From Chloroflexota bacterium (lineage in GTDB: Bacteria > Chloroflexota > Anaerolineae > Anaerolineales > Villigracilaceae), in the NCBI GenBank assembly GCA_019873655.1, contig JAIOAU010000020.1, positions 1 through 54,354 on the forward strand: a stretch of 54,354 nucleotides of DNA, in the 5' to 3' direction. The notes beneath the pieces were generated by a model. It was not told the origin of the DNA, made no database searches, and worked only from the letters and a program-made list of their open reading frames with translations. The position numbers and the translations under genes were made by a program. Below, in pieces: positions 4,672 to 53,410 of this stretch. Position 1 is the stretch's first letter. Each line of letters starts with the position of its first letter.

Positions 4672-6270
4672 ATGCCTAAAGCAGATGGTTCGCCGCCGTT
4701 GCGGGCGGTGGGATACCGCAGAGTCTCGATGCGAGAGCAGGTGGATGGGTTCAGCCTGGATGCCCAGGAAAACAACATCGCCCATTACGCCGAGGAACAC
4801 GGCTGGGCCTTACTCGAAATCTACATGGATGCAGGCCTCTCGGCCAAGAAGGGCAGCCGCCGCCCGGCCTTCGAGCGGCTCCTGCAGGACGCCCAGGCGC
4901 GCAAGTTCGATGTTGTGATTGTGGACAAGGTGGATCGTTTCTACCGCCACTTGAGCGGTCTGCTCTCCACGCTCGACCTGCTCAACAGTTACGGCATCTC
5001 CTTCGTCTCTGTGCAGGAACATCTCGATTTCACAACGCCTTGGGGAAAGTTGATGCTGACTGTGCTTGGCACCCTGGCCGAGATTTATATTGATAATCTG
5101 CGCCAGGAAGTCCGCAAGGGCAAGCGCCAACGCGCCCGCCAGGGCTTATGGCTGGGCGCCATCCCATTCGGATATTGCAACGGATTGTGCTCGAAATGCA
5201 CCGACCCGAACGGCAGAGGATATTGCCCGAACTTTGGCCAGGCAGACCGGGGGGACGGGAAAGTCATGTTGCCGCATCCGATCGAGAGCGGAATCGTCCA
5301 GCAGGTCTTCGAGTGGTATCTCACCGGAGAGATGTCCGACCGTACAATCGCCGACCGGCTGAATGGGATGCAAATCACCCTGCCAGATGGCTCCCGTGTG
5401 CCCGCCAGACAGAAAGGCGCCCCTGGCCGCACCGGGCCGCGTCCCTTTAGCCGGGACGTGATTCGCGACATGCTCAATCGGGTGGCCTACACCGGCAAAG
5501 TTCCGTACCAGGGAGTAGCGGATGACGGCCGGCACCGCAAACGCAAGGCTCCGCTCGACTTGTTTCCGGCCAATCACGCCGCGCTGATCGACGATGCCAC
5601 GTTTGAACGAGCGCGCGCCATCCGCGAATTGAAAGGCCTGACCCCCTTGAGCGATGTTCACCCGGCGCGCATTTATCCGCTGACGGGGATTCTGCGCTGC
5701 GGTTTTTGCGGCGGCAAAATGCGCGGGGTTTCGAAAGACCATGGCTACCGTTATTACAAGGACAGCAACCAGCAAGACCGCGTCTGCAAGTGCCAGCAAA
5801 ACGTGGTCCGAGCAGATTGGATCGAAAAACAAGTGGTGGATTGGTTGAAATCTGTCATAGAATCCGGCATCAATGATGTTGCCCGACGGGCTATCGAGGA
5901 GTTCGAGCAAATCGAGTCCCGTTTCGAGCGCGCCAGAAAACTCTACCTGGCTGGCGAGATTTCCGGGCAAGTATTCGAAGCCGAGCGAGAAAGGTACGAC
6001 GGATTAAAAAACGGCTTGCAGATTGATGGATGGCGTGCTACAATAGCAGTAGCAAATGCTATTGCGCCGCAATTGGCGCGCTGGCCGGAACTTTCCCAGT
6101 ATGAACGCAAAAGCCTGCTCCGACTCGCCATCGGAACAGGCTACTTGCGGAAAAACGCATTCGCGGCGGTCGAGCCAACGCTTGCGTTTTTGCCTTTAAC
6201 GAGGTCTGACGATACCAGACCTGGTAAAGGGGGTAACTGCGGGGAGGGCGGGATTCGAACCCGCGACTGA
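4672..6270 (+). CDS. large serine recombinase (site-specific integrase)
   Basis: 532 residues. The N-terminal resolvase catalytic domain reads AVGYRRVSMREQVDGFSLDAQ, with nucleophile Ser19, and later VDRFYRHLSGLLSTLDLLN. A Recombinase domain (about 150-330) contains an unusual Cys cluster (CSKCTDPNGRGYC). A zinc beta-ribbon (GILRCGFCGGKMRG, then CKCQQN) and a C-terminal coiled region follow. Family role: DNA integration and excision by two-strand cleavage through Ser. AGGAGG at 4661-4666 fixes the ATG at 4672. The last residues (GEGGIRTRD) are encoded by the 3' end of tRNA-Ser(GCT) read antisense, so the gene runs into the tRNA, as expected if the element integrated there. Confidence 0.92.
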   Translation: MPKADGSPPLRAVGYRRVSMREQVDGFSLDAQENNIAHYAEEHGWALLEIYMDAGLSAKKGSRRPAFERLLQDAQARKFDVVIVDKVDRFYRHLSGLLSTLDLLNSYGISFVSVQEHLDFTTPWGKLMLTVLGTLAEIYIDNLRQEVRKGKRQRARQGLWLGAIPFGYCNGLCSKCTDPNGRGYCPNFGQADRGDGKVMLPHPIESGIVQQVFEWYLTGEMSDRTIADRLNGMQITLPDGSRVPARQKGAPGRTGPRPFSRDVIRDMLNRVAYTGKVPYQGVADDGRHRKRKAPLDLFPANHAALIDDATFERARAIRELKGLTPLSDVHPARIYPLTGILRCGFCGGKMRGVSKDHGYRYYKDSNQQDRVCKCQQNVVRADWIEKQVVDWLKSVIESGINDVARRAIEEFEQIESRFERARKLYLAGEISGQVFEAERERYDGLKNGLQIDGWRATIAVANAIAPQLARWPELSQYERKSLLRLAIGTGYLRKNAFAAVEPTLAFLPLTRSDDTRPGKGGNCGEGGIRTRD

Positions 6271-6330
6271 GGTTCAAGCCCCAGTACTCACTTAGCAGGC
6301 GAGCCCAATCGGCCTCTCTGGCACCTCCCC
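6240..6330 (-). tRNA. tRNA-Ser(GCT)
   Basis: Class II cloverleaf read on the minus strand. The 7-bp acceptor GGGGAGG/CCTCCCC, anticodon stem CTCGC/GTGAG with loop CTGCTAA (anticodon GCT), a long variable arm and T-loop GGTTCGAATCC are all present. The discriminator is G and no CCA is encoded. The recombinase frame overlaps its 3' end by about 30 bp. Confidence 0.95.
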
Positions 6331-6461
6331 AGGAATTGCAGATTGAGGATTGTAGATTGAGGATTGTAGATTGAAAATTGTTGACTGTCAAATCGCCGAT
6401 CCTCAATCAACAATCCTCAATCAACAATCAACAATCAACAATCCAACAATCGGCAATCCAG
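6331..6461. repeat. short tandem repeat block, inverted about its centre, between two tRNA-Ser genes
   Basis: The left half repeats GATTGAGGATTGTA; the right half repeats the complementary CAATCAACAATC/CCTCAATC units. The two halves could fold into one long imperfect hairpin. The same CAATC-type units occur inside the kinase gene near 3010-3067. There is no gene here. Confidence 0.75.
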
Positions 6462-6548
6462 CGGAGGGAGTGGGATTCGAACCCACGGCGGCTTTGCAGC
6501 CGCGACGGTTTTCAAGACCGTTGCCTTCAACCGCTCGGCCATCCCTCC
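6462..6548 (-). tRNA. tRNA-Ser(TGA)
   Basis: Class II tRNA on the minus strand: acceptor GGAGGGA/TCCCTCC, anticodon stem ACGGT/ACCGT with loop CTTGAAA (anticodon TGA), long variable arm CGCGGCTGCAAAGCCGC, T-arm GGTTCGAATCC, discriminator G, no encoded CCA. Confidence 0.95.
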
Positions 6549-6615
6549 GGGCGGGGGAGATTTTACCATAGATTTACCGGTCTATCTCTGCGCCGGGGAA
6601 AATCCTGGCCCGCGT

Positions 6616-7362
6616 TCAAATCCCTTTGCCGCGCTTCTGCCCAGCCCGGTACACGCCCACCTGACGGGCATACTTCAGCAGATCCCGCCGCCGGGCCAGC
6701 GTCTTCTTCGTCCAGGTCAGGGCAATTTGCGCGCCGGTCGGCGAGAAACGCGCGATAGGGGTTACCTGACGATTGAGGAGCGCCTTGCGCAGGTCGGCTG
6801 CGCTGAGGCCGTTGAAGCGCACAACCCCGCTGCCAATCAGTTCGCGCACATGCGCATCGCTGCCCGCCACCTCGCACAGATGCAACTGGTGCGCCAAACC
6901 ACGCAGGGGCGCGGTCTGGCTGTTGACCAGTAAACAGCCCGTGAAAATCTCGATCCCCACCAGCACTTTCGAGGCCTCCGGATGGGCGGCCACGCGGCGG
7001 ATATCGTCGTGGGTCAGGCTGTGCGCCAGCCGCGTGTTCGGGTGGGGAATCACAGCCAGGCCGCCCGCCTCGCCGATGCGGAGAATCGCCTCGATCAGCG
7101 GACGGTGCGAGGGAATCGGCCGCTCGATGAACAGGGCCAGAACATGCCCTTCCAGGGTCGTCAATTCCACGGCCGGCACCACGTCGATGCCATACTTCCC
7201 ACAAATCTCGCGCGCCTCGAGCGAACCGCGCAAATCATCATGGTCGGCAATGCCGATGACATCCAGATTGGCGTGATAGGCGGCGTATTCGAGAATCTCC
7301 GCCACCGTGTCGGTGCCGTCGATGCTGTAAAGAGAATGTACGTGAAGGTCTGCTCTGCCCAT
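6616..7362 (-). CDS. PHP-domain metal-dependent phosphoesterase
   Basis: 248 residues. PHP-family metal ligands are visible: HVHSLYSIDGT at the N-terminus, IADHDDLRG, the Glu in VPAVELTT, IPHPN and GSDAHVRELIGSG. Members are trinuclear-metal phosphoesterases acting on phosphorylated small molecules or nucleic-acid ends; the substrate cannot be told here. The C-terminal ~40 residues are basic (KKTLARRRDLLKYARQ). It is a stand-alone minus-strand gene in a tRNA-rich stretch with about 100 bp to the upstream thioesterase gene. Confidence 0.85.
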   Translation of the reverse strand: MGRADLHVHSLYSIDGTDTVAEILEYAAYHANLDVIGIADHDDLRGSLEAREICGKYGIDVVPAVELTTLEGHVLALFIERPIPSHRPLIEAILRIGEAGGLAVIPHPNTRLAHSLTHDDIRRVAAHPEASKVLVGIEIFTGCLLVNSQTAPLRGLAHQLHLCEVAGSDAHVRELIGSGVVRFNGLSAADLRKALLNRQVTPIARFSPTGAQIALTWTKKTLARRRDLLKYARQVGVYRAGQKRGKGI

Positions 7363-7462
7363 AGCCCCCCTTTTTCAATCGGGGTCATGCGGTCGAGAAA
7401 AACGACGTTGTCAGAAACGGTCTCCTGTGTGAAATGCGTCATCCATCAAGCCGGGTGAGCCT

Positions 7463-7855
7463 TTATTTTTGCTTGGCCTGCACCTTGCTCATAAAGCGCG
7501 CTTCATCTACAATGAAACGCTCGTGGATGGCCTGTCCGATGGTTTCGACTTCATCCCGCGCCTGAACGTGAAACGTCAACTGACGCCCCTGCACTTCGAC
7601 CAACTCGGCGCGCGCCCAGACCTTCATCCCAACCGGCGTGGGCGCCAGGTGGTGGACGTCAATCCGCCCGCCGACGGTGGTCTGCCCCTCGCCCAGACGA
7701 CCGGCCAACGCTTGGACGGCCGCCGATTCCATCAGCCCGACCAGCGCCGGGGTGGAATACACCGGCACCAGCCCGCTGCCCCAACGGGCGGCGGTATCGG
7801 CTTCGGTCACGATGATCTCGACTTCGGCACTCAGGCCAGGGGATAGGTCGCTCAT
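7463..7855 (-). CDS. FlK-like hot-dog thioesterase
   Basis: 130 residues, the usual size for the fluoroacetyl-CoA-thioesterase-like family. The triad motifs are recognisable: Thr in YSTPALVGLMESAA with Glu in LMES, and His in VHHLAPTPVGM. The family hydrolyses acyl-CoA thioesters. Most homologues are not known to act on fluoroacetyl-CoA, so the natural substrate is unknown. AGGAGG lies 6 bp before the ATG. It stands alone between the PHP gene and a small membrane-protein gene. Confidence 0.85.
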   Translation of the reverse strand: MSDLSPGLSAEVEIIVTEADTAARWGSGLVPVYSTPALVGLMESAAVQALAGRLGEGQTTVGGRIDVHHLAPTPVGMKVWARAELVEVQGRQLTFHVQARDEVETIGQAIHERFIVDEARFMSKVQAKQK

Positions 7856-7941
7856 GGATTCCTCCTGAGTTTTTCTCGGAATCGACCGGCCAAATCATAC
7901 CACAAATAAAGACCGCGCCCGGACCGTTTTCTCGAAAAAGG

Positions 7942-8337
7942 TCACTTTCGTCTGGCAGGCCGTTCCTTTTTCGGCGGGGAAGGCTTGCGCTTGCCAAGCG
8001 GTCTCGGCCTGGCCCATAATACCCCAAAGATGACGATCATCACCATCAGCGCCGCAAAAGCGACGATTCCCGCCGTATCTGCTGAGCGGAGATCTTCGGG
8101 GCCGGGCGCGGTGGGAGTAGCCGTCGGGGTCAAAGACGGAGACGGGGTCACAGAACGCGGCGCGCAGGTCGTCTGCGGCGTGGCGGTGGGGCTGGCCGCG
8201 CCCAGCAGAGCCGCCGACCGGACGACGGGCGCCGCCCGGACGGACGAAAAGGCTTGCAGGCCCCCGATCAACGAGGTCAGCAGAATCAGGGCCACGATGG
8301 CCGCGATAAAGGGGCGGGGGGAGACGGTTCTATGCAT
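7942..8337 (-). CDS. small secreted/membrane protein with Thr/Pro linker and Lys/Arg tail
   Basis: 131 residues, no known family. The order is an N-terminal signal or anchor helix (about 10-30), a short exported segment with the repeat PSPSLTPTATPTAPG, a second transmembrane helix (about 88-110, GIVAFAALMVMIVIFGVLW), then a highly basic cytoplasmic tail (KRKPSPPKKERPARRK). The topology is a small exported loop with a positively charged inside tail. The ribosome-binding site is weak, so the exact start is uncertain. Confidence 0.6.
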   Translation of the reverse strand: MHRTVSPRPFIAAIVALILLTSLIGGLQAFSSVRAAPVVRSAALLGAASPTATPQTTCAPRSVTPSPSLTPTATPTAPGPEDLRSADTAGIVAFAALMVMIVIFGVLWARPRPLGKRKPSPPKKERPARRK

Positions 8338-8395
8338 GCGATGTCTCTGAGTATATCACGAGAATCAAAACACCCCTCGCGGGATGTTTCTCAGG

Positions 8396-8482
8396 CGGAG
8401 AGGGCGGGATTTGAACCCGCGTCCCCTTGCGGGGAACACGCTCTCCAGGCGTGCGCGCTAGGCCAGACTACGCGACCTCTCC
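8396..8482 (-). tRNA. tRNA-Ser(GGA)
   Basis: Class II tRNA on the minus strand: acceptor GGAGAGG/CCTCTCC, anticodon stem CACGC/GCGTG with loop CTGGAGA (anticodon GGA), long variable arm, T-arm GGTTCAAATCC, discriminator G, no encoded CCA. Confidence 0.95.
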
Positions 8483-27928: not shown

Positions 27929-27988
27929 GGTTCACCTTCTAACCTTCGAAAGGAGCAGCAGGGGGCGTCATAGCCGTCAAAAGGAAGG

Positions 27989-28082
27989 CGGGAGTGGATG
28001 GGGGTCGAACCCACCGCGGCCCGCAACGCGGCCCGCCACCGGTTTTGAAGACCGGGAAGCCCTCCGGGACTTAACCACTCCC
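27989..28082 (-). tRNA. selC: tRNA-Sec(TCA)
   Basis: A 94-nt class II tRNA on the minus strand. The 8-bp acceptor stem GGGAGTGG/CCACTCCC, one pair longer than usual, the anticodon stem CCGGT/ACCGG with loop CTTCAAA (anticodon TCA), an extended D-arm stem (TCCCGG..CCGGGA type) and a very long GC-rich variable arm are all selenocysteine-tRNA features. The discriminator is G; CCA is not encoded. It implies that SelA, SelB and SelD are encoded elsewhere in this genome; none is in the window. Confidence 0.93.
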
Positions 28083-48784: not shown

Positions 48785-49504
48785 ATGAGTCCCGATATTC
48801 CCACCGAACCGGTCAACCCCCTACGCGTCTTCATCTTGTGCGACCAAAATGACACTGCTCCCATCTGGGGTTACATCATCCGCGAAAAGGGACTGATTGC
48901 CCTGCTGGAAACGTCGGTCGCCAAAGCCATGACCCGCTCTTCGGAGATCACGTCCGATCTCATCGTCATCGACGTCAACGTCCCCCACGCCGAACGAATG
49001 AACCTCTGCCGCCAATTCCGCGCCCTGAGCGACAGCCCCATCCTGCTCTTCCTGCCCACCAACAACGAGGCCGAGATTCTGGAGGCGTATCAGGCTGGCG
49101 TGGACGAATGCGTCATCAAGCCCATCAGCCCGGCCATCTTCATGGCCAAGATCACCGCCTGGGCGCGGCGCGGACGGGCAGTGCCGGTGACGCGCCTGGC
49201 TCCGGTAGGAGCAGGCGGGATGCGCCTCGACCCGGCCCGCCGGGCGGTCGTCGACCCGCAACGGGGAGAGATTCGCCTGACGAACCTCGAATTCCGCCTC
49301 CTGCACCTGCTGATGAGCCGGCCCGGCCATATCTTCTCGACCGAGGAAATCATCCAGAGTGTATGGGGCCTCTATGAGCAAAGCGATCCGGCGTTGTTGA
49401 AAAACGTGGTCTACCGACTGCGCAAGAAATTGGGCACCGAGACCAACGAGACCCAGTTGATTCAGACCTGGCCGGGAGGGTACAGTTATCAAGAAGGCGA
49501 GTAA
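48785..49504 (+). CDS. OmpR-type response regulator (orphan)
   Basis: 239 residues. The receiver domain has the phospho-acceptor Asp in SDLIVIDVNVPHAE and the Lys in ECVIKPISPAIF. The N-terminal acidic cluster is reduced (LCDQND). The C-terminal winged helix (FRLLHLLMSRPGHIFSTEEIIQSVWGLYEQSDPALLKNVVYRLRKKLG) is of the OmpR/PhoB type. No histidine kinase is adjacent, so it is an orphan. ATG at 48785 has GAGGTG upstream. Confidence 0.92.
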   Translation: MSPDIPTEPVNPLRVFILCDQNDTAPIWGYIIREKGLIALLETSVAKAMTRSSEITSDLIVIDVNVPHAERMNLCRQFRALSDSPILLFLPTNNEAEILEAYQAGVDECVIKPISPAIFMAKITAWARRGRAVPVTRLAPVGAGGMRLDPARRAVVDPQRGEIRLTNLEFRLLHLLMSRPGHIFSTEEIIQSVWGLYEQSDPALLKNVVYRLRKKLGTETNETQLIQTWPGGYSYQEGE

Positions 49505-49520
49505 ATCCTTCGGCTCGCGG

Positions 49521-50522
49521 CTATCCCCCGCTCCAGCCTCTTTGCTCCCAGGCTTTCACCTTCTCCAGCAACGTTGACAGCGGTTGCAATTCCCGCATCG
49601 GAACCGCCAGGTTCTTCGTCTGCGTGCGGGCGTACTGGAACGTCGACGCGCCGGCGCTGAGGACAGACGACCGGCGGCGGAACTCCTCATGGGTCAGCCA
49701 GCCGACCAGAAGGATTTCCATGCCGTACACCCAGATATTCCCCCACTCGTGCGGCTGGATGAGATAGACTTCCCCTTGCTGCGGGCTGTACAATCCAACC
49801 CGCGCCTCGGGCTGACGAAACGCCCGCACGTAGGCCAGGCTGTAAAAGATGTCCTCGACGGAGAGACGCCGCCGCGGCGACAACTCGAATCGACGGGCGA
49901 CGAAGCCGCGGTCGGCATCCTGTCCGCCGATCTCGACCGTCAGCGGATCGCGGCATTCGCTCTTCAAGGCCAACGCTCCGAGAGGCGCCCAGACAGCCGG
50001 CCGCGCCCAGGCTTTGGGCAGAGGATGAATCAGAAAGAACGGCTGGCCAGCCGCGGCGGCCCGCGTCAGGTCGGCGCGGGAGGCGGCCGTCAGGCCGAGC
50101 AGGAAGGCAAAGAGGTAGATGTCATCGGGCTTGTGGCCCTCGGCGAGGAACTGGTCGAGAGGGACGAGCGCCGGGGCGTCCAGCGCAGCGACGGGGGCGC
50201 GGCGGAGGCGCGCGATCTGGGCGCGGCGGGAGATGAAGTAACTCTTCAGGTCGCAGCGGTGGCCGCCCAGGGCCACGTCGTAACGGTCGGGGTCGGTAAA
50301 GGGCGTCGCCCCCAAGACATCGAAGGGGACGGCCTGCTGAGCCAAAAAACGGCGGAAGGCCAGTTCCACCGCCACGCCCGCCGCAATGCGCCGCAGCCGG
50401 TCAAACGGCGAGCCGCCCATGCGGTTGTAGGTGTAGGCCAGCGAGCGGCAGGCGTAGGCGATGCCCGCCTCGCTCAGGTCGGGCGTGTAGGGCAGGCGGA
50501 TGAGGTCGGACGGTTGAATCAT
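49521..50522 (-). CDS. putative PD-(D/E)xK nuclease, candidate restriction subunit
   Basis: 333 residues, no family recognised. Residues 46-93 show a nuclease-like pattern: Glu53 in VAVELAFRRFL, Asp82 in DRYDVALGG and DLK at 91-93 (CDLKSYF), the E..D..DxK spacing of PD-(D/E)xK enzymes. The rest has no clear motif. It starts 44 bp after the stop of a DNA methyltransferase gene, in the same direction, with GGGAGG before the ATG at 50522. The pairing suggests a restriction-modification system; the nuclease role is inference. Confidence 0.55.
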   Translation of the reverse strand: MIQPSDLIRLPYTPDLSEAGIAYACRSLAYTYNRMGGSPFDRLRRIAAGVAVELAFRRFLAQQAVPFDVLGATPFTDPDRYDVALGGHRCDLKSYFISRRAQIARLRRAPVAALDAPALVPLDQFLAEGHKPDDIYLFAFLLGLTAASRADLTRAAAAGQPFFLIHPLPKAWARPAVWAPLGALALKSECRDPLTVEIGGQDADRGFVARRFELSPRRRLSVEDIFYSLAYVRAFRQPEARVGLYSPQQGEVYLIQPHEWGNIWVYGMEILLVGWLTHEEFRRRSSVLSAGASTFQYARTQTKNLAVPMRELQPLSTLLEKVKAWEQRGWSGG

Positions 50523-50566
50523 GGATTTCCTCCCTGAACTTTCCACACTGCTAATGTTCCCGCAAA

Positions 50567-51376
50567 CTATCCTTCATTCCTAAATTGCAAACAATAGTGG
50601 TGAAAAGTGTTGCTGACCCAGGCCGAGCCGAGGCCGTAGGGGGCGAGCGGCTGATTGTCCTGGCACCAGATTTTCTCGTCTTTGAGGGCATACACCTTGC
50701 CCAGTTCGCGGCCCAGATCCCAGGCCAGCGGGTAGATTTTGCCGCCCTTCTTGACGTTCTTGACGATGATGGTCAGATAGGCTTTCGGGCGCAGGAGAGG
50801 TTTCAGCCTGGCGTAGATGGCGACCAGTCTTTCCAGAAAGGCCTGGTAGTCGTGGATGTTGCCCAGGTCGTCCGGGTCGTCCGAGTAGAAGACGTCCAGG
50901 TCGGCGGCGGCGCGGCGCTTCTTTTGCGTCTCGGCCCCTTTTGCGTGGAGCATGTCCCAGTACGGAGGAGAAGTCAGAACGTAGTCAATGGTCGGAAGCC
51001 CAAAGTCGAGGGCGTGAGCCGCGTTCCCGGTGATGACGCTCGACGTCAGGCCCTCGGCTTGCTGACCGAGCAATCGGCGCTCTTCGCCGATCATCTGGCG
51101 GGCGATCTCGGCATACCTGGGATTCAACTCGATGCCGTAGGCATGCCGGCCGGCGCGCAGGGCGGCCACGAGCGTCGAACCGGTGCCGGCCATCGGGTCG
51201 AGCACGGTCTGGCCGCGCTTGGTGAAGAACTCGATGAATTCCTGGGCCATCGTCTCGGGGAACTTGGCCGGGTGGACCAGCACGCCCTTCTTGCGCGGCG
51301 GCGGGTTGTGCACGAACCAGGATTTCTGGAACTTGAGCCACTGCTTCGGGTCGAGGTCATTGAGTTTGTTGGACAT
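50567..51376 (-). CDS. site-specific DNA methyltransferase (N4-cytosine/N6-adenine type)
   Basis: 269 residues. HPAKFPETMAQEFIEFF is motif X, TVLDPMAGTGSTLVAALRAG motif I (SAM binding), GIELNPRYAEIA motif II and DYVLTSPPYWDML the catalytic SPPYW motif IV, which favours N4-cytosine or N6-adenine amino methylation. It is probably the modification partner of the gene at 49521-50522. Solitary epigenetic methylation is the alternative. Confidence 0.88.
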   Translation of the reverse strand: MSNKLNDLDPKQWLKFQKSWFVHNPPPRKKGVLVHPAKFPETMAQEFIEFFTKRGQTVLDPMAGTGSTLVAALRAGRHAYGIELNPRYAEIARQMIGEERRLLGQQAEGLTSSVITGNAAHALDFGLPTIDYVLTSPPYWDMLHAKGAETQKKRRAAADLDVFYSDDPDDLGNIHDYQAFLERLVAIYARLKPLLRPKAYLTIIVKNVKKGGKIYPLAWDLGRELGKVYALKDEKIWCQDNQPLAPYGLGSAWVSNTFHHYCLQFRNEG

Positions 51377-51395
51377 AGGCGCGCAGAAAAGGGAA

Positions 51396-52244
51396 TCAGG
51401 GAGTAGGCGTGCGCGTCGGCGTAGGAGTGAGGGTGGGAGTCGGCGAGGGCGTGGGGGTCGAGTAAACGACCCGGTAGACGCGCAAATCGGAGAAACTGAC
51501 CGTCAGGGGCGAACCGCTGCTGGAGAGAATGAACACCCCCAGCGCGCCCTGGGCGAAGACGGGATCGCGGACGGTGAACTGGTAGTGGTCGTCGAGGAAG
51601 AAACGCAGTTCCGGGCCGGCCGCCCAGACGCCGAGCCGCACCTGGGTGGGCGCGCCGAGGGGCGCGTCGCCGCTGGGCTGCCAGTTCTGCAACGGGATGG
51701 CCGCGCCGCCCTGGACGCGCTCCAGGCGCGTCTCGCCCTGACAGTTGACGGCGTAGCGGTAGTAATCCTGGTAGGACATCAGGCGCACCAGCAGGCCGTA
51801 CTGATCGCGGCCGCGGCACAGACTCAGGGTGGCGTCGATCTCGGCGTAGAAATCGCGCAGCAGCGGCTCGCTGCGCGGACTGAAGAGCAGCCGCCCGGCC
51901 GGGCCGCCCTCCATCGAGAGAGTCAGGCGCTGACGGGCGATTCGAATCTCGGCGCTGGCCGTTGAGGTCGTCAGCCAGAACTGCGGCTGGTCGAAGGAAT
52001 CCTCCAGGAGCAGGTCGCCCACGCCGGGCCGCGGCTCGAGGCTCGGCTGGACGGGCGGACGCGGCAGGGGCGTGGGCGTGTTCGTCGGCGGGAACCAGAC
52101 GATGGTCGCGGTGGCGGTGGCAGCGGCCGTCGGGGTCGGGGGAGGCGTCGGCGCGGGCAGGCAGGCGGTCAGCAGGCCGAGGGTCAGGAGCAGGCCGCCG
52201 ATCGTCAGTCCAATCGTCTGCCAATGTCGTCCGGCGAGAAGCAT
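51396..52244 (-). CDS. lipoprotein with a LamG/DUF1080-like beta-sandwich
   Basis: 282 residues. The lipobox LLTLGLLTAC and a Thr/Pro-rich tether lead to a beta-rich domain: LLLEDSFDQPQFWLTT, AEIDATLSLCRGRDQYGLLVRL, YYRYAVNCQGETRLERV, VRLGVWAAGPELRFFLDD and GALGVFILSSSGSPLTVSFSDLRVYRV. This pattern resembles concanavalin-like (DUF1080/LamG) carbohydrate-binding folds. The C-terminus is another Thr/Pro repeat (TPTPSPTPTLTPTPTRTPTP). The start at 52244 has only a weak ribosome-binding site. Confidence 0.72.
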   Translation of the reverse strand: MLLAGRHWQTIGLTIGGLLLTLGLLTACLPAPTPPPTPTAAATATATIVWFPPTNTPTPLPRPPVQPSLEPRPGVGDLLLEDSFDQPQFWLTTSTASAEIRIARQRLTLSMEGGPAGRLLFSPRSEPLLRDFYAEIDATLSLCRGRDQYGLLVRLMSYQDYYRYAVNCQGETRLERVQGGAAIPLQNWQPSGDAPLGAPTQVRLGVWAAGPELRFFLDDHYQFTVRDPVFAQGALGVFILSSSGSPLTVSFSDLRVYRVVYSTPTPSPTPTLTPTPTRTPTP

Positions 52245-52375
52245 GTGAGTTTCATCCCTCAAGGCGGTTGCAAATATCGCAGCCCGTTTCGGTCCGCCTG
52301 TTGTACAATACAAGTGTAGATGGCGCCCTGCGGGGCGCTTCATCCACCTCATTCTAGCATAGAAGGAGAGAAAAT

Positions 52376-53410
52376 ATGAGCGAAAAAACCGTCCTGGTGA
52401 CCGGCGCGTGCGGCGAGATCGGTCAGGCGCTGGTGCAGGGGCTGGCAAAGAGGGGCGGATACCGCATCGTGACCACCGACCTGCTTCCGCCCGCCGAGGC
52501 GATTCAGCCGCTGACGTCCGAACACGTCCAGGGCGACCTGGTCTACCGGGTCAAGCAGTTCTACGACTACGATTTCGACATCATCTTCCACCTGGCGGCC
52601 TCGCTCTCGTCCAAGGCGGAGGTGGCCACCGAGGAGGCCCACCGCATCAACGTCGAGGGGACGATGCAACTGCTGATGCTGGCGGCCTACAAATCGGCCA
52701 AGCGCGGGCGGGCGGTGCAGTTCCTCTTCCCCAGTTCGATTGCCGCCTATGGGTTCTCCAGTTTGGAGGAAAAGCATCGCGCCGGACGCGTGAAGGAGGA
52801 CGACTACAACACGCCGCACACCATGTACGGCTGCAACAAACTGTACTGCGAGAAACTGGGCATCTACTACAGCCGCTACTACGGTCAGCGCCACCTCGAC
52901 CCCGACCCGCCGGTGATGTGCGACTTCCGCGCCATCCGCTTCCCCGGCCTGATCAGCGCCTACACCGTGCCGAGCGGCGGGACGAGCGACTACGGGCCGG
53001 AGATGCTGCACCACGCCGCCCAGGGCCTGCCCTACGCCTGCTTCGTGCGCGAGGACACCCAGATTTCGTTCATGGCCATGCCCGATGCCATCAAGGCCAT
53101 CTTCATGCTGATGGACGCCCCGCGCGAGCAGTTGACCCGCCAGGTGTACAACATCACCGCTTTCAGCCTGACCGCCGCCGACTTCCGCAAGCGGGCGCTG
53201 GCGGCCTTCCCCTCGGCGCAGATTACCTTCCAGCCGAATCCGCGCCGCCAGGGCATCGTCGACTCGTGGCCGGAGGATGTGGACGACTCGGCCGCCCGCC
53301 GCGACTGGGGCTGGCAGCCCGATTACGATGTGGATCGCTTCTTCGAGGAGTATTTCCTGCCCGAAATCCGCAAACGCTACAAGAACGTCCGCGCCCGGAC
53401 GAACGAGTAG
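52376..53410 (+). CDS. L-threonine 3-dehydrogenase-like SDR
   Basis: 344 residues of the extended short-chain dehydrogenase family. VLVTGACGEIGQALV is the NAD-binding TGxxGxxG; IIFHLAASLSS, FPSSIAAYG and YGCNKLYCE give the catalytic Ser and YxxxK. IRFPGLISAYTVPSGGTSDYGPEMLHHA is the distinctive substrate block of SDR-type threonine dehydrogenases, which oxidise L-threonine to 2-amino-3-ketobutyrate. AAGGAGAG precedes the ATG. UDP-sugar epimerase activity is less likely given that block. Confidence 0.82.
   Translation: MSEKTVLVTGACGEIGQALVQGLAKRGGYRIVTTDLLPPAEAIQPLTSEHVQGDLVYRVKQFYDYDFDIIFHLAASLSSKAEVATEEAHRINVEGTMQLLMLAAYKSAKRGRAVQFLFPSSIAAYGFSSLEEKHRAGRVKEDDYNTPHTMYGCNKLYCEKLGIYYSRYYGQRHLDPDPPVMCDFRAIRFPGLISAYTVPSGGTSDYGPEMLHHAAQGLPYACFVREDTQISFMAMPDAIKAIFMLMDAPREQLTRQVYNITAFSLTAADFRKRALAAFPSAQITFQPNPRRQGIVDSWPEDVDDSAARRDWGWQPDYDVDRFFEEYFLPEIRKRYKNVRARTNE

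Follow-up and report, generated by a model that had tools for sequence, protein, structure and literature searches.

Restriction–modification (R-M) pairs, decayed R-M systems and conserved solitary DNA methyltransferases are all kinds of system that are already known. CcrM and Dam are conserved solitary methyltransferases. HVO_0794, the CTAG methyltransferase of Halobacteria, is described as an enzyme of the beta subtype with a different motif order and without a cognate nuclease (PMC5867850). R-M genes are usually described as patchy and as often transferred or lost, and degraded R-M systems leave an orphan methyltransferase next to a decayed nuclease gene (PMC6471742). For the Chloroflexi, a further study describes M.AbaBS3I from the CL500-11 lineage, an m4C methyltransferase specific for GCWGC with 22.9% identity to its best REBASE match and no recognised R-M partner (PMC6329791); this lineage is given as the GTDB family UBA11657 (PMC12143481). 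In this study, we analysed a methyltransferase gene (MT) and the neighbouring gene of a predicted PD-(D/E)xK-fold protein (NUC) from a member of the order Anaerolineales. We propose, with a probability of roughly two in three, that MT and NUC are the two partners of an ancient and divergent R-M system resembling Type II, which has been passed on mostly vertically at a fixed locus of one Chloroflexota order. No published account of this pair was found in a literature search that covers few subscription journals, and the part of PMC12772301 consulted does not mention it.

The arrangement resembles Type II R-M systems with PD-(D/E)xK enzymes such as EcoRV, PspGI and NhoI in that a methyltransferase adjoins, on the same strand, a protein of this predicted fold with E...D...D-x-K in the expected places of the core. 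However, NUC has no detectable sequence kinship to any family in the libraries searched, it carries a beta-sandwich insert, and the pair is order-restricted and syntenic rather than scattered. Like CcrM, Dam and HVO_0794, MT is kept in a large clade at high identity, and genomes that contain MT only resemble these cases; in contrast to the solitary enzymes, MT is still linked to a nuclease-fold partner in most of its own family. With M.AbaBS3I it shares the origin from an Anaerolineae lineage and little similarity to known enzymes, and M.AbaBS3I, compared here by description and not by sequence, is a lead only as an orthologue of MT.

Within the window, by which we mean the whole stretch of DNA analysed here (54,354 nt), both genes are located on the minus strand. 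MT (50567..51376) encodes 269 amino acids, as defined by its open reading frame and a match to PF01555, and its stop codon is followed by a gap of 44 bp (50523..50566), which contains a Shine–Dalgarno-like GGAGG a few bases 5' of the ATG of NUC; NUC itself (49521..50522) encodes 333 amino acids from the ATG at 50522. A sequence-only reading of this DNA had described a methyltransferase with the motifs DPMAGTGST and SPPYW, 44 bp ahead of a 333-residue protein, and its coordinates, motifs and residue numbers were all right. We infer from the 44-bp spacing that MT and NUC are probably co-transcribed. A promoter and terminator scan of positions 49400-52500 gave no promoter-like site on the minus strand and a single one on the opposite strand, together with four terminator-like sites where 2.4 would be expected. 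MT is preceded by a putative lipoprotein gene on the same strand (51396..52448), which matches no Pfam family, ends 19 bp before MT and is a recurrent upstream neighbour, and beyond this lies a divergent NAD-dependent epimerase gene on the plus strand (52376..53410) as a second recurrent marker of the locus. Judged from their sequences, both partners look intact, and the system is probably active in this organism. Elsewhere in the window, ARAGORN predicted a selenocysteine tRNA on the minus strand (27987-28082), and three different tRNA-Ser genes (gct, tga and gga) lie on the minus strand inside 2.3 kb (6239-8482).

MT is assigned to the N6_N4_Mtase family (PF01555) with an E value of 1.9e-23 and 84 bits against a gathering score of 26.7 in Pfam. 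Motif I (DPMAGTGST) precedes motif IV (SPPYW), and the AdoMet and catalytic motifs are intact, as is expected of a methyltransferase in a Type II R-M system. Both SPPYW and DPM-x-GTGS are invariant across 34 aligned homologues, which were picked by hand from 70 loci, and from the SPPYW motif we presume that the target is probably N4-cytosine or N6-adenine. The protein is small and its sequence contains no obvious separate recognition domain. Relatives of MT are present in plasmids, phages and one IMG/VR contig, and at the three plasmid, phage and viral sites inspected NUC was neither annotated nor detected beside them. The nearest full-length plasmid homologue comes from Haloferax (44% identity). 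On a Haloferax lucentense plasmid (NZ_CP104744.1; L198, 5911-10926), the 44% relative precedes genes for a UvrD helicase that contains a PD-(D/E)xK nuclease domain (PF12705) and for a 462-amino-acid protein without a Pfam family, and it is possible that these genes form another methyltransferase–nuclease operon. The viral contig IMGVR_UViG_3300033149_007104 encodes an MT relative with 53% identity (L240, 2490-3431) and no NUC on the 7.4 kb covered; a phage carrying a methylase of this type could be protected against the MT–NUC pair. In some relatives the methyltransferase gene contains suspected in-frame inteins (L030, 4724-5851, also seen in L022; L052, 4429-5499). These intein-like insertions start with C, end with HN or GN and are followed by C or S, and they occupy two different sites, one of which is directly before SPPYW.

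Searches of Pfam, NCBIfam, PADLOC and PHROGs assigned NUC to no family at E<=1, and the sequence-only reading had likewise been unable to place it; matches to PDB sequences were at chance level (E 0.22 or worse). When 46 homologues were each compared with Pfam, five families were returned, each from one member only and at E 0.04 or worse. The 46 homologues were selected by hand from 70 loci; near-duplicates, truncated loci and sequences with an inner stop or a missing start were dropped, and some others were not taken. Their alignment shows E53 without exception, and D82, D91 and K93 each occur in at least 90% of the sequences; E-D-D-K is read in 39 of the 46. This conservation indicates that the residues E53, D82 and D91-x-K93, which are found at the positions at which they were first noticed, are more than a chance resemblance to a nuclease site.

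An AlphaFold model of NUC computed with the 46 homologues reached a pLDDT of 90.9 and a pTM of 0.88. The core of PD-(D/E)xK enzymes has the order alpha-beta-beta-beta-alpha-beta, and residues 39-145 of the model follow this order with a helix, strands, helices and a strand; E53 is located in the helix 39-62, D82 starts the strand 82-85 and D91-x-K93 lies in the strand 88-97. A beta-sandwich of about residues 160-262 interrupts the core, and the chain continues beyond it with residues 263-327. This insert fills the PDB list obtained with the whole model (1nc7, Z 6.5, rmsd 4.1, 85 residues), and for this reason the first 155 residues were modelled separately; the whole model also aligns with EcoRV (Z 4.3, 139 residues) and with NhoI (Z 5.2, 113 residues), the latter tied with unrelated rows. 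The model of residues 1-155, which is without the C-terminal part of the core, has a pLDDT of 81.3. Of the 50 entries in its VIA list, nearly all of which we take to be of the PD-(D/E)xK fold class, 28 belong to a single protein, the influenza PA endonuclease (Z at most 5.2, over 111 residues with an rmsd of 4.0), and the others include Hjc (Z 4.0), McrBC (3.4), EcoRV (3.2), PspGI (3.0) and lambda exonuclease (2.9). Foldseek against the PDB gave nothing at E <0.001 for the whole or the 1-155 model; the best match of the latter was an arenavirus endonuclease at E 0.18, with unrelated Tdp2 rows close to it. Searching a viral structure library returned eight phage proteins (159-184 residues) that match NUC along almost its entire length with target-normalised TM scores of 0.66-0.74, and four of them are among the six matches with E <0.001. 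Two of the eight are named 'Restriction endonuclease' (A0A6J5NRJ2 and A0A6J7XSJ9 from BFVD); these match almost the whole model except the insert, both with a target TM of 0.74, but share 7-10% identity with NUC, have half its length and, in the case of A0A6J7XSJ9, reach an E value of just 0.026. The superfamily signal comes from the VIA list for the 1-155 model and from the viral library. We assign the core of NUC to the PD-(D/E)xK superfamily by prediction only, relying on the consistency of the VIA entries and on how well the four residues sit in this fold. The Z scores are modest (insert, at most 6.5; core, at most 5.2) and within the range that the tool calls common for unmatched models. 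The structure prediction that the sequence-only reading had proposed as a check hence shows a predicted nuclease core, and as far as the four profile libraries and the PDB show, NUC represents a new nuclease-fold family.

Within the window's order, a profile search at E<=0.001 detected NUC in 126 of the 301 genomes, with 68 of 69 genomes of its own family positive and 58 positive genomes in other families; the single genome of the own family without NUC belongs to the window's own genus and retains MT. A phylum sample of 400 genomes contained NUC in 23, all from the own family (23 of 24), and in none of 11 other members of the order or 365 genomes outside it, and a class sample of 298 genomes, which overlaps with the phylum sample, contained it in 14, all again from the own family, and in none of 278 outside the order. 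The titles of 46 named GTDB loci are all Chloroflexota, in a scan that reaches close relatives only. NUC was not found in PLSDB at E<=0.01 or by a pattern scan of IMG/VR, where none of 85 pattern matches was a relative. Among the 301 genomes of the order, 79 contain both genes, 47 NUC only, 47 MT only and 128 neither (Fisher 5e-10, uncorrected for kinship). Draft genomes may miss genes, the absence of MT from them is never certain, and some of the 47 genomes with NUC only are incomplete drafts. The list of MT-positive genomes comprises 126 of 137 candidates kept by hand, those with a best match weaker than about 1e-60 being judged individually; such weaker matches are mostly full-length paralogues and also short fragments (e.g. 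in G517). In loci with MT only, SPPYW is intact in all 20 that were read and the motif I pattern matched in 17 of the 20, and MT thus also persists without NUC.

MT is upstream of NUC and on the same strand in all 73 loci with both genes (MT score >200) among 146 loci examined (L025-L070 and L098-L197), with a median gap of 76 bp. The gap is larger in some loci, several of which contain other genes in it and one of which has an insert within MT itself. Among the 46 named loci, 40 contain MT next to NUC, and the prospect that homologues would never be found beside methyltransferases did not come true. In three of the others (L035, L045 and L050) MT is unseen where just 715, 251 and 75 bp are present upstream of NUC, and in L057, L061 and L066 there is no MT in 2.9-4.2 kb upstream. 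Among loci with at least 2.5 kb of upstream sequence, the lipoprotein gene lies on the same strand within 2.5 kb upstream in 54 of the 58 that contain the pair, in 28 of the 42 that contain NUC but lack MT locally, and in 17 of the 19 that contain MT alone, which indicates that the paired, NUC-only and MT-only states share one chromosomal place; these order and neighbour counts are partly non-independent, since some named loci are on the same contigs as other entries (e.g. L066 and L110). The clades of the NUC tree mostly track family and genus codes, with the exceptions of G583, which falls outside its family, f95, which is split in three places, and f100, which is scattered; judged by eye, the tree fits a mainly vertical descent. 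Unlike typical mobile R-M systems, the locus is old and fixed across one order. Side genes have entered it in some lineages: L163 and L164 have a second, different methyltransferase-like gene (448 aa, DPFCGTGTT, SPPY) between MT and NUC, and L026 and L039 have other genes there, so that the locus accepts insertions.

The state of the NUC active site is related to the presence of MT. The site was read in 113 of the 126 NUC genomes, corresponding to 114 copies (G457 has two); the remaining 13, whose copies were partial, weak or not retrieved, do not enter the count. For the most divergent copies (e.g. f99 and L195) the reading depends on the alignment. Overall 70 of the 114 copies have an intact site (E, D, D or E, K) and 44 a degenerate one. 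With MT in the genome, 60 of 75 copies are intact and 15 degenerate; without MT, 10 of 39 are intact (eight E-D-D-K and two E-D-E-K) and 29 degenerate (Fisher 2e-8). Glutamine occurs at the place equivalent to K93 in known enzymes such as BglII, and by this analogy K93Q may be functional in some MT-bearing relatives; allowing Q or E at this position, the intact fractions become 63 of 75 and 12 of 39. In the own family alone, 40 of 46 copies with MT and 10 of 21 without it are intact (Fisher 0.0016). A maximum-likelihood test of correlated evolution was run on a NUC tree from which the catalytic columns were left out and with the root fixed as paired and intact; its p values were 0.0016-0.0094 with the complete set of 114 copies (six settings) and 0.039-0.066 with the 67 copies of the own family (four settings). 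Such tests can be over-confident. Parsimony on the NUC tree gives 10 changes in MT state and 14 in the active site, and a pairwise sign test had only seven well-supported independent contrasts, with on average 3.4 concordant and 0.4 discordant (median p 0.25), and with so little power it did not reach significance. The link between MT presence and site integrity is supported by these sequence comparisons, at the strength that a limited number of events gives it. Where MT is missing, the NUC site tends to be degenerate and the protein is often kept.

With 267-335 amino acids matched, the 44 degenerate copies are close to full length, and they keep residues outside the site, for example G20, A55, R58, W172, G200, W260, N262 and G267. 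With the method of Nei and Gojobori, applied to 21 pairs with dS >1 in several, dN/dS was 0.12-0.29 for ten pairs of degenerate copies, 0.08-0.17 for ten intact pairs and 0.16 for one mixed pair. Some of the degenerate pairs have K93Q as their sole change and may be active, but clearly altered ones fall in the same range, with 0.18 (f101, EQER), 0.29 (f96, EAAC/EDTC), 0.18 (f95, g260, EAVA/EDVR) and 0.13 (own family, D91G/D91Q). By this measure the degenerate copies are under purifying selection, which together with the conserved outside positions suggests that those lineages benefit from a NUC that does not cut, and hints that it may have a non-catalytic role. As in degraded R-M systems, one partner has been lost and a catalytic site has decayed; however, the decayed NUC is no pseudogene but a near full-length open reading frame with a low dN/dS, often with the methyltransferase gone. 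It is conceivable, and we advance this tentatively, that a restriction-type NUC has, on several independent occasions, given rise to a conserved protein that binds DNA but does not cut it. The gene at this locus would then encode a restriction enzyme where MT is present and a catalytically dead but selected protein, such as a site reader, regulator or shield, where MT or the site has been lost.

A search for avoided k-mers pointed to no recognition site, as no palindrome was consistently avoided in the pair-bearing genomes (pooled loci; 0.98 Mb of sequence drawn from 40 genomes of the own family, of which 20 carry MT together with an intact site and 20 lack MT). AGCT, CTAG, GGCC, GCWGC and RTCGAY each stood out in one grouping or another. 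RTCGAY gave 0.42 against 0.74 in the own-family comparison, spans 0.11-0.83 among those MT-bearing genera of the own family for which over 10 sites are expected, and in other families is at 0.78 with an intact pair and 0.77 with a degenerate NUC without MT. In the own family, GCWGC shows a moderate deficit whether MT is present or not. The avoidance of words varies by genus and has no consistent relation to the pair. CTAG had been considered as the specificity of MT by analogy with the halobacterial methyltransferase, given the 44% homologue on the Haloferax plasmid, and was dropped, as the CTAG enzyme is described as being of the beta subtype with another motif order (PMC5867850). AGCT is strongly depleted across the whole window (10 observed, 120 expected) and not in some relatives; this may be caused by another restriction system of the same genome.

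In the R-M reading that we prefer, MT would methylate a short DNA motif and so mark the sites of the host, and NUC would bind a motif common to MT and cut where it is unmethylated, using a metal-dependent PD-(D/E)xK site formed by E53, D82, D91 and K93. In other lineages one partner is missing. Cleavage, the shared target, protection and the restriction of phage and plasmid DNA by the pair are all inferred. Since a nuclease core is predicted and the homologues do occur beside methyltransferases, a Type II-like pair with a divergent nuclease, as first suggested from the sequence, is the best reading. The sequence alone could not reveal that the pair occupies a fixed locus across one order and is not scattered, that either partner often occurs alone, or that 44 of the 114 homologues have a degenerate site. 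Vertical fixation is unusual for R-M systems and counts against this reading, as do the modest Z scores, the lack of a consistently avoided palindrome, the few independent contrasts, the 15 MT-bearing copies with a degenerate site, and the MT-less copies that keep an intact site, which an unguarded restriction enzyme would not be expected to permit. An intact NUC without MT needs an extra assumption, such as another protecting methyltransferase, a dependence of NUC on MT, or silence of the gene, and we therefore keep as a rival that NUC works solely in a complex with MT, in which MT or the complex would provide target recognition and the loss of MT would silence NUC while the cell survives. 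The 47 of 126 NUC genomes without MT (some of them incomplete drafts), the intact sites in a quarter of the MT-less copies, the fixed gene order and a small MT without an obvious recognition domain of its own would all suit such a complex; however, 47 of the 301 genomes have MT and no NUC, and SPPYW is intact wherever such an MT was read, which indicates that MT is kept without NUC, and we regard an obligate complex as quite unlikely.

It is also unlikely, in our estimation, that the conserved job of NUC is DNA binding or regulation, for example reading the site of MT, with restriction ancestral or occasional and the dead copies revealing the main function. The near full-length dead copies with their conserved outside residues and low dN/dS are what this explanation would predict, and so is family f96, in which all 11 copies are degenerate yet retained; on the other hand, 60 of the 75 MT-bearing copies, spread over seven families, retain all four residues, which points to selection for catalysis there, and the integrity of the site tracks the presence of MT. 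This last relation is the opposite of what would be expected if NUC attacked the mark made by MT, and it weighs against NUC being a modification-dependent (Type IV or IIM-like) nuclease directed at foreign methylated DNA with MT as an independent solitary methylase. NhoI, which was solved with methylated DNA, is among the best restriction-enzyme matches of the model, but at a Z score tied with unrelated rows, and the order and strand of the two genes are strict, so that we consider a modification-dependent enzyme very improbable. Equally improbable is that MT and NUC are unrelated chance neighbours. The locus is syntenic anyway and their adjacency could be inherited rather than selected; however, the presence of MT and the integrity of the site show correlated evolution, and the same-strand order is kept in 73 of 73 loci though other genes sometimes intervene.

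As far as the four profile libraries and the PDB show, what is new here is the nuclease-fold family of NUC, the order-wide fixed locus and the catalytically degenerate descendants that appear to be selected. A single locus that occurs in all four states, with both genes, the methyltransferase only, the nuclease only or neither, provides a natural series on why restriction systems stay in genomes, and with it one may ask how cells survive when the methylase is the first partner to go and whether a restriction enzyme that no longer cuts can acquire a cellular function.
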